From: Crocinitomicaceae bacterium
GTDB taxonomy: Bacteria; Bacteroidota; Bacteroidia; Flavobacteriales_D; Crocinitomicaceae
Assembly (NCBI GenBank): GCA_029247685.1
Contig: JAQWKT010000053.1
Location: 1-56,924 of the forward strand
Direction of reading: 5' to 3'
Length of the DNA stretch: 56,924 nt
In this document: piece after piece, positions 12,246 to 14,626 of the stretch
Layout: the number at the start of each line of letters is the position of its first letter
Position numbering within the stretch: the stretch's first letter is position 1
Notes under the pieces: generated by a model
Told to the model about the DNA's origin: nothing
The model's database searches: none
The model's input: the letters and a program-made list of their open reading frames with translations, nothing else
Translations under genes and position numbers: made by a program

Positions 12246-12977
12246 ATGAAACTTCACACTCAAAATATCTCAAAATCTTATGGAAAAGTACGTGTTGTTC
12301 AAGATATTTCTATAGAAGTAAACCGAGGCGAAATTGTCGGTCTTCTTGGCCCAAATGGCGCAGGGAAATCCACCTCTTTTTAAATGATTGTTGGGCTTGT
12401 TTCTCCTAATAAAGGGCAAGTTTTACTTGATAACAAAGATATCTCTAATATGCCCATGTATAAAAGAGCTCAACTTGGTATTGGGTATCTCCCACAAGAA
12501 GTTTCTGTTTTTAGAAAACTGAGCGTAGAGGATAATATTTTAGGCATTTTGGAGATGACTAAATTAAAAAAGAAAGAAAGAAATGCTAAACTTGAGTCAT
12601 TGCTAGAAGAATTTGGTCTTCACAAAGTTCGCAAAAACCTTGGGAATCAATTATCTGGAGGAGAAAAAAGAAGAGTAGAAATAGCCCGAGCTTTAGCAAC
12701 TAACCCTAAATTTTTACTATTAGATGAGCCTTTTGCTGGGGTAGACCCTATTGCGGTAGAAGATATTCAAGGAATTATTTCCAAATTAAAAAAGAAAAAT
12801 ATTGGAATTCTAATTACCGATCATAATGTTCATGAAACCTTATCCATAACAAATCGTGCTTATTTACTTTTTGAAGGCAAAATTCTAAAATCAGGAACCG
12901 CCGAAGAACTTGCAAATGATGAACAGGTTAGAAAAGTTTATTTAGGAAAACATTTTAAACTACTAAAAAATGAATAA
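12246..12977 (+). pseudogene. lptB: LPS export ABC ATPase LptB, interrupted by an in-frame TAA
   Basis: LptB is the cytoplasmic ATPase of the LptBFGC machine that extracts lipopolysaccharide from the inner membrane. Read through from the ATG at 12246, the frame encodes a normal-length protein of 243 codons. It has Walker A GPNGAGKS (35-42), the signature [12 protein letters not shown], Walker B FLLLDEP and the LptB-typical H-loop ITDHNVHE. Codon 46 (12381-12383) is TAA where the family has a conserved Tyr in the F-Y-M-I-V-G-L motif; TAT or TAC to TAA is one base change. No frameshift is present, and both sides are otherwise intact. LptB is normally essential, so a sequencing error, a strain-specific lesion or a split product are the alternatives. 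Confidence 0.8.
12384..12977 (+). CDS. Downstream reading frame of lptB restarting directly after the internal stop
   Basis: The ATG at 12384 touches the internal TAA (TAAATG), an arrangement that could allow termination-reinitiation. The 197-residue product would keep the ABC signature, Walker B and switch His but lack Walker A, so alone it could not bind ATP normally. The upstream 45-residue piece carries Walker A. Whether the two pieces assemble is speculation. Its 3' end overlaps the lipoprotein gene at 12970 by 8 bp. Confidence 0.5.
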
Positions 12978-13551
12978 TAGAGCTTTTATATTGTTTACTC
13001 TCATTTTAATTTCTTTGATTGCCTTTTCTTGTGAAGGAAATGGAGAAGTAAAAAAAGAATTAAAATCTAAAAAAACATCAAAAATAGATCAAAGTTTGAA
13101 CGAAGATTACTATCAGTTTTCTAAGTTATATTTATTAAAAAGCGAAATACAAGGCACTATAATGTTACCCAATGAAACATCAAGACTAGGAACATCTGAA
13201 AAGCCAAAAGTTCAACATGAACATGGTGGATTTAAATGGGAAATTAGCGTGGGACCTTCTTTTTCTCTTTATCTAGAAGATTATGGAAAACAAACAAATC
13301 TTATAAAAAACCACAAGATTAAGCTAAAGACAAACAATGTCTATAAAATTGAATTTCTTAAAGAGTTACCCAACCTGCTCATTTATAAGAAAACATTAAA
13401 AGAAACAAACAACCACACTTCTTATTTCATTTATGCACAAAAAAAAATAAACAACATTACATATGAAATTAAAAATAAACCTCAAGGAAACAGAAAGGAT
13501 ATTGTAGATGTAATGGAAAAAAGCATCCTTTCTTTCAATAGTTCAATTTAA
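12970..13551 (+). CDS. Lipoprotein of unknown function
   Basis: A 193-residue protein with a signal peptide ending in a lipobox (LIAFSC, Cys21), followed by a charged linker rich in Lys and Glu. The remainder looks like a beta/alpha domain with no motif I recognise. It has several Tyr/Phe-rich strands and ends in a helix ([12 protein letters not shown]). Its start overlaps the end of lptB by 8 bp and it lies 10 nt before mrp, so it is cotranscribed with one or both. A link to LPS export is possible only by position. Confidence 0.65.
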
Positions 13552-13561
13552 CAAAAAAACA

Positions 13562-14626
13562 ATGATAGCAACAAGAGAAATTATACTACAAGCTCTAGCC
13601 AATGTGGTTGATTCTGAACTTAAAAAAGACCTTGTTTCTTTAAATTTTGTAGAAGAAATAAAAATAGAAGAAAATGAAATTTCTTTAATCATATACACAT
13701 CAAACCCCGCTTTACATGCAAAAAAAAGATTAAAAGATGCCATAGAATTTAATGTCAATCGGTATATTTCCGATAAATCTTACGCTATAAATACTCAAAT
13801 TAAACCTGCTCCAAAAAGAGAAAGTAAAAAACCGCTTAACAACATAAAACAAGTAATCGCCGTTGCTTCAGGAAAAGGAGGGGTTGGAAAGTCAACTATT
13901 ACCGCCAACTTAGCATGCGGACTTTCAAAAGAAGGTTATAAAGTAGGCATTATTGATGCCGATATTTATGGTCCATCAATACCCACAATGTTTGATGTTG
14001 TTAACAAAAGACCTAAACCTATAGTAACCATAGATAACGAAAAGAAAATAGAACCAATAAAAGCACATGGAATCAAATTACTTTCTATTGGTTTTTTTAC
14101 CGAAGAAGAAAAAGCCATTGCTTGGAGGGGGCCAATGGCAACTCGAGCTTTGGAACAATTATTTGTAGATGCTTATTGGGGTGAATTAGATTTTTTGTTA
14201 ATTGATTTACCTCCAGGCACTGGCGATATTCATTTATCTCTGGTTCAAAAGTTTCCTCCCGATGGGGTTATCATGGTTAGCACACCACAAAAAATTGCTC
14301 TTGCAGATGTAAAAAGAGGAATTAGCATGTTTCAAATGGATAGCATAAACATTCCTATTATTGGGCTTATTGAAAATATGGCCTGGTTCTCTACAGAAGA
14401 AAACCCCGAAGAAAAACACTACTTGTTCGGAAGAGATGGGGCTCAGAATTTAGCAAATGGATTAAAAATTCCGTTCTTAGGAAGCGTTCCTATTATTCAG
14501 AGTATTAGAGAAGCAGGCGATGCTGGTATTCCTTCTGTTTTACAAAAAAACACGCTTTCTGAACGCGCTTTTAAAACCATTGTTAATACTTTTATTGCAA
14601 ATTTAAACACTCCTACAAATGGATAA
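13562..14626 (+). CDS. Mrp/ApbC-type iron-sulfur carrier ATPase
   Basis: A cytoplasmic P-loop protein of the Mrp/NBP35 family that delivers Fe-S clusters to apoproteins. Residues 1-80 form a MIP18/DUF59-like domain. The deviant Walker A is ASGKGGVGKS (102-111), followed by GIIDADIYGPS and the switch segment LLIDLPPGTGDIHL. The 354-residue length is normal. The CxxC found in some NBP35 members is not present after GLIENMAWF, as in many Bacteroidota homologues. It overlaps the nifU-type gene by 8 bp, which supports a joint role in cluster assembly. Confidence 0.9.
   Translation: MIATREIILQALANVVDSELKKDLVSLNFVEEIKIEENEISLIIYTSNPALHAKKRLKDAIEFNVNRYISDKSYAINTQIKPAPKRESKKPLNNIKQVIAVASGKGGVGKSTITANLACGLSKEGYKVGIIDADIYGPSIPTMFDVVNKRPKPIVTIDNEKKIEPIKAHGIKLLSIGFFTEEEKAIAWRGPMATRALEQLFVDAYWGELDFLLIDLPPGTGDIHLSLVQKFPPDGVIMVSTPQKIALADVKRGISMFQMDSINIPIIGLIENMAWFSTEENPEEKHYLFGRDGAQNLANGLKIPFLGSVPIIQSIREAGDAGIPSVLQKNTLSERAFKTIVNTFIANLNTPTNG

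Follow-up and report, generated by a model that had tools for sequence, protein, structure and literature searches.

An interrupted lptB frame

The window, that is, the whole stretch of 56,924 nucleotides analysed here, lies on contig 8 of a draft genome from a Crocinitomicaceae bacterium (83 contigs, 2.23 Mb, 94.06% complete, 0.23% contamination; GC ∼33% over 453 kb of the genome). The element in question is its lptB gene (12246–12977, plus strand), coding for the lipopolysaccharide (LPS) export ATP-binding cassette (ABC) transporter ATP-binding protein and interrupted once, at codon 46. Translation of the locus yields 45 residues, an in-frame TAA (12381–12383), and then MIVGL and onward to a terminal TAA, so that the frame has 243 positions before it ends, the 46th of which is the internal stop. 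The 5′ part (45 codons, 12246–12380) carries the Walker A motif GPNGAGKST, ends two residues (SF) beyond it, and matches the first 27 positions of Pfam ABC_tran. The 3′ part (12384–12977) is a 197-amino-acid open frame that begins with ATG, a conserved Met codon, and holds the signature motif, Walker B, and the H-loop, together with the C-terminal part; by itself it matches the NCBIfam model LPS_export_lptB (TIGR04406) at 294 bits over profile positions 46–239, above the curated cut-off of 240 for this LptB equivalog. When the stop is read through, the protein aligns end-to-end with solved LptB chains (best 6mjp_A, E = 2.8e-90, query residues 3–239), and 6mjp_A reads TSFYMIVGL at the stop position.

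The frame is not mis-called, because coding signal is present on both sides of the stop and continues across it. Gram-negative bacteria need lptB to build their outer membrane, and normal ATP binding would not be expected of an ABC ATPase chain that lacks Walker A. As recorded, the TAA parts Walker A from the rest of the nucleotide-binding domain, which is continuous only if the stop is an error. An initial annotation of this DNA had described the in-frame TAA in an otherwise complete LptB frame of 243 codons, a description that translation, TIGR04406, and the solved chains all bear out. It had offered three origins for the stop (an error of sequencing or assembly, a very recent lesion offset by a further copy, or a protein split by termination-reinitiation, which it already called unusual) and had proposed looking at the codon in close relatives and for a second lptB in the genome; both checks are reported here.

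Related loci encode tyrosine at the stop

We compared codon 46 across 109 related lptB loci, 29 from one search and 80 from another, with organisms possibly shared between the two sets. The codon is TAC in 60 and TAT in 49, so that Tyr is encoded in 109 of 109 and a stop in none, as the initial annotation had anticipated in placing the TAA at the Tyr of a conserved motif. Codon 47 is ATG in 105 of the 109. Named LptB relatives are mostly Bacteroidota, and several of the closest are Flavobacteriales records. Two genome searches covered 178 genomes besides the source genome, and an LptB-level match is among the matches listed in 169 of them, partial or in pieces in seven (G015, G032, G050, G053, G116, G145, and G166); the other nine (G017, G033, G055, G065, G087, G136, G163, G172, and G175) gave only distant ABC matches. 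No internal stop was found in the LptB-level matches of the 169 genomes, and no second LptB-level locus occurs among the matches listed, save pieces of a broken-up gene.

The ATG that abuts the stop has a simple origin in this comparison: it is the inherited Met of a conserved Phe-Tyr-Met motif rather than a new start site. Given the conserved Tyr-Met pair, any nonsense change at the Tyr codon gives a stop followed by ATG. Over the whole gene, 3.4% of one-step nonsense changes abut an ATG (a mean over 29 relatives plus two counts of the gene itself with a Tyr codon inserted), so the arrangement is uncommon, yet it requires no special explanation. That the TAA abuts an ATG thus stands from the initial annotation, while the weight given to it does not.

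The same arrangement is what could suggest a split LptB, in which ribosomes would stop at the TAA and restart at the adjacent ATG, and a 45-residue Walker A peptide and a 197-residue chain would assemble into a working ATPase. Such a spacing would allow coupling, as a ribosome-profiling study (PMC7538156) calls distances of less than 25 nt optimal. The window has the same TAA-ATG layout at a true gene junction (31887, minus strand), where a YicC-like gene meets the guanylate kinase gene, and reinitiation at the adjacent ATG is possible in principle. The same study, however, argues that reinitiation is not a major coupling mechanism in E. coli. The ATG is also not specific to a split gene: because it is present in 105 of 109 related loci, all of them unsplit, no start site had to evolve here. 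Furthermore, no split relative was found among the 178 other genomes, and the stop would delete an invariant Tyr and cut the protein just behind Walker A. The titles and abstract openings returned by a literature search on lptB with a premature stop codon held nothing resembling a split LptB. With nothing in its favour beyond a TAA-ATG pair that follows from the conserved Tyr-Met, we regard a split LptB as very improbable.

One of the 80 named loci, L071 from a Rudanella metagenome-assembled genome, has an lptB with a single in-frame TAA of its own, at position 197; private stops in lptB therefore do occur in draft genomes.

Conservation, lineage divergence, and gene copies

If the stop were old, the remainder of the gene might be expected to carry other lesions. 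The lptB in the window retains 81 of the 83 columns that are invariant across the 109 loci, the exceptions being the stop itself and T42S in Walker A, and all 64 of the 64 invariant columns downstream of the stop are kept. The T42S change (12369–12371) puts Ser at a Walker A Thr shared by all 109 loci. The numbering offset in the solved-chain alignment would place it at E. coli position 43, and T43S in E. coli LptB is listed among suppressor changes in PMC6703430.

Branch lengths were compared in trees of lptB and two other genes, each with the 12 same-genus genomes (out of 36 in the search) from which a locus of all three genes was fetched. Measured as a share of the whole tree, the terminal branch of the source genome amounts to 16.4% for lptB, 17.7% for Mrp/ApbC, and 13.0% for P5C dehydrogenase. 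We considered relaxed selection on lptB and rejected it: the LptB of this genome has the lowest mean identity of the 13 sequences (its own and those of the 12 relatives), but so does its Mrp/ApbC protein, and its P5C dehydrogenase ranks second from the bottom among 13. The long branch hence belongs to the genome and not to lptB, since the two other genes are similarly divergent. Both codons 1–45 and codons 151–243 of the gene are less like the 29 relatives than any relative is like the others. Taken together, these comparisons give no sign of decay specific to lptB, which has not evolved faster than the two other genes of the lineage, and because no trace of decay is seen, the stop is either very young or not real.

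By family models, lptB is flanked by a type I GAPDH gene upstream and an ApbC/Mrp-like carrier gene downstream. The latter (13562–14626) is markedly more divergent from the genus (mean identity 57% versus a median of 73%) than either lptB or P5C dehydrogenase.

A search of the draft genome, which is 94% complete, turned up no second lptB. The next-best ABC ATPase reaches 31% identity to the lptB 3′ part and 35% to the read-through protein, higher identities among the genome's ABC matches to the 3′ part being confined to short stretches. The partners expected of an LptB are in place, as two LptF/LptG-type proteins (PF03739 matches) are encoded without internal stops. The genome also encodes LpxC and an OstA_2 protein, neither broken by a stop, and because all of these are uninterrupted, the LPS export pathway is expected to work and to be needed.

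These observations bear on the possibility that the TAA is authentic, a nonsense allele of very recent origin that some or all of the sampled population carries. The consensus would then have captured a deleterious variant, in cells either dying or tolerated through leaky read-through, and the record would show an allele that is dead or close to it rather than a system. The absence of decay elsewhere in lptB fits a very young lesion as well as it fits an error, and other stops in the draft (see below), including those in two SecDF-like paralogs cut at different places, could be real lesions of the lineage. Against this, fixation of such an allele is unlikely, given that no compensating copy turned up and that the other LPS genes tested are free of interruptions. 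A minority allele, for its part, would be expected to prevail in the consensus only where coverage is low. We therefore hold a young nonsense allele to be unlikely, though a good deal less so than a split protein. The more specific proposal of a recent lesion compensated by another copy has little to recommend it, with no intact second lptB found in the 94% complete draft or, apart from gene pieces, among the matches listed in relatives.

Interruptions elsewhere in the draft

To provide a comparison for the lptB stop, 810,366 bases of the genome (the window and 40 further stretches) were scanned for coding signal that continues across in-frame stops, and the best 26 stops were examined; at least 40 open codons were needed on each side, so stops near gene ends are missed. 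Three of the 26 were judged, by reading, to be interruptions of single genes, namely those in lptB, a membrane pyrophosphatase, and a SecDF-P1-like protein, and the remainder looked like two-gene junctions or antisense frames. The same reading applied to two sister genomes found none among 26 in 800,000 bases of G014 and none among 26 in 400,000 bases of G002.

The membrane-bound pyrophosphatase is encoded on the minus strand of contig 35 and has an in-frame TGA (L210:967–969) at a position that is Gly in 29 of the 29 relatives read. The stop cuts off the last part of the H_PPase domain, and the frame continues with the conserved C-terminal part. Two paralogs resembling the head of SecDF-P1, 77% identical to each other, have one in-frame stop each, at different places: a TGA in one (L239:9505–10215, contig 66) and a TAA in the other (L298, ∼13224–14558, contig 17). 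The frames that hold the matching SecDF-like part in same-genus relatives are 693 to 1049 residues long. Homology tests against the sister genomes brought out two further places. The first is a TAA in a protein that we take to be START-like, on the plus strand of contig 50 just upstream of an LptF/LptG-type gene (L234:15516–15518), with 59% identity to the sole available relative, which has Glu at the stop. The second is a TGA 34 codons from the end of a protein that we presume to be CHU_C-type, on the minus strand of contig 35 (L211:5065–5067), where two relatives continue with Gly.

That several frames in the 37% of the genome that was read continue past single stops also raises the question of read-through or an altered code, with a suppressor tRNA reading TAA (and TGA) as amino acids at some places. 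Consistent recoding would pair one stop with one residue, but both TAA and TGA are involved, and the residue found at these positions in relatives or paralogs is Tyr, Gly, Glu, or Leu, a mixture for which no single suppressor accounts. Moreover, all three stops end ordinary frames of at least 250 codons (333 TAA, 56 TGA, and 54 TAG), and we reject an alternative genetic code because all three terminate long frames. No stop-reading anticodon was present among the 21 tRNA places recovered, an incomplete set that contains no Tyr, Trp, or Ile tRNA. Read-through is accordingly the least credible of the explanations considered. The presence of both TAA and TGA in place of different residues, with none read in the coding-signal scan of the sisters, fits better with base-level consensus errors or variant lesions than with recoding or a split LptB.

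The homology tests were run in two forms. In the first, queries began at the first Met, and the lptB stop was missed because the G014 lptB starts with GTG. This form gave three rows over 47,640 residues of own DNA with G014 queries, of which one (L241, position 12972) was dropped for poor local identity, and one row over 27,993 residues with G002 queries, at the same L211 place. No rows came from G014 DNA, either over 47,930 residues with own queries or over 74,414 with G002 queries. For G002 DNA, own queries yielded no row over 28,279 residues, and G014 queries yielded two over 77,648, both located in a single degraded frame. In the repeat form, whole stop-to-stop frames served as queries, and the lptB, L211, and L234 stops were all detected among 6 rows over 48,285 and 5 over 28,178 residues of own DNA. 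Rows dropped from the repeat were L241, L298 (position 17218), and L235 (position 3249), for poor local identity, and four rows at L217 (12333–12387), where several successive stops lie upstream of a Met. In the G002 genome, frameshift-like breaks were seen at L336:1331–1357 and L325:6242–6249, the L325 frame being degraded and also holding stops.

Several of these results weigh against a consensus error as the source of the lptB stop. The first form separates the source genome from its sisters only weakly (two kept places, versus none in G014 and two stops in one degraded frame in G002), and the repeat form gave rows in the controls as well, 0 over 49,176 and 8 over 77,643 residues in G014 and 2 over 28,797 and 10 over 79,678 in G002. 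By reading, we take these 20 control rows for non-coding or upstream sequence, most of it brought in by the longer queries, and at the four control places examined the coding signal was close to zero or negative. If the sole criterion is 10 identities out of 20 on either side, four control rows pass (L308 at 5951, L328, L327, and L326), compared with lptB, L211, and three of the L217 rows in own DNA; coding signal was examined in three of these four controls (L328, L327, and L326) and is about zero or negative in each. A mechanical count alone thus does not separate the source genome from the sisters, and the source genome carries only slightly more stops than the controls, an excess judged in part by reading and from low counts. 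In addition, no other interrupted gene was recognized in the window (of 40 frames compared with Pfam, 35 matched, and none of them appeared truncated by a stop), the homology tests showed no frameshift-like break in own stretches, and the SecDF-like stops may reflect real decay. It should be noted that the lack of frameshifts argues against indel-prone data and not against substitution errors.

Discussion

With both sides weighed, the likeliest explanation is that lptB is an ordinary, full-length gene and that one base of the draft consensus is wrong, a conclusion in which we have reasonable though not full confidence; the wrong base itself is inferred. Among the origins proposed initially, a sequencing or assembly error is best supported, because the stop is private to this record, decay is absent, and similar single stops occur in other conserved frames of the same draft. 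On this account, lptB would be a single-copy gene whose TAA is a wrong base in the 83-contig consensus, the living organism would make one full-length LptB of ∼243 residues, and this LptB would dimerize on LptF and LptG and power LPS extraction; its function in the organism is thus presumably normal. That the TAA is instead real and fixed, with LptB made as two chains cut behind Walker A or by efficient read-through, seems very unlikely; if it were true, the P-loop of an ABC ATPase could come from a separate peptide.

We considered a GC-to-TA mutator, since several of the stops might share that change, and set it aside, as MutY is present without stops. Tyr is mostly TAT in this genome (6720 versus 1886), and no mutational signature is claimed.

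Used as a caution, the case suggests that when a draft genome shows an essential gene broken by a stop, the stop be judged by whether it is private, whether the gene has decayed, whether there is another copy, and how many further conserved genes of that draft have stops of the same kind. Genes interrupted by consensus errors are a familiar class in draft genomes, and the present case resembles them in having a single private stop in a conserved single-copy gene, no further decay, and other isolated stops in the same draft; a literature search on stops or errors in metagenome-assembled genomes returned no papers. In comparison with the LptB of the LptB2FG exporter (TIGR04406; solved chains 6mjp, 5l75, 6mgf, and others), the protein is alike in length, motifs, end-to-end alignment, and LptF/LptG-type partners, and differs from known LptB in the one in-frame TAA that replaces an invariant Tyr and in the Ser that replaces the invariant Thr42 of Walker A.
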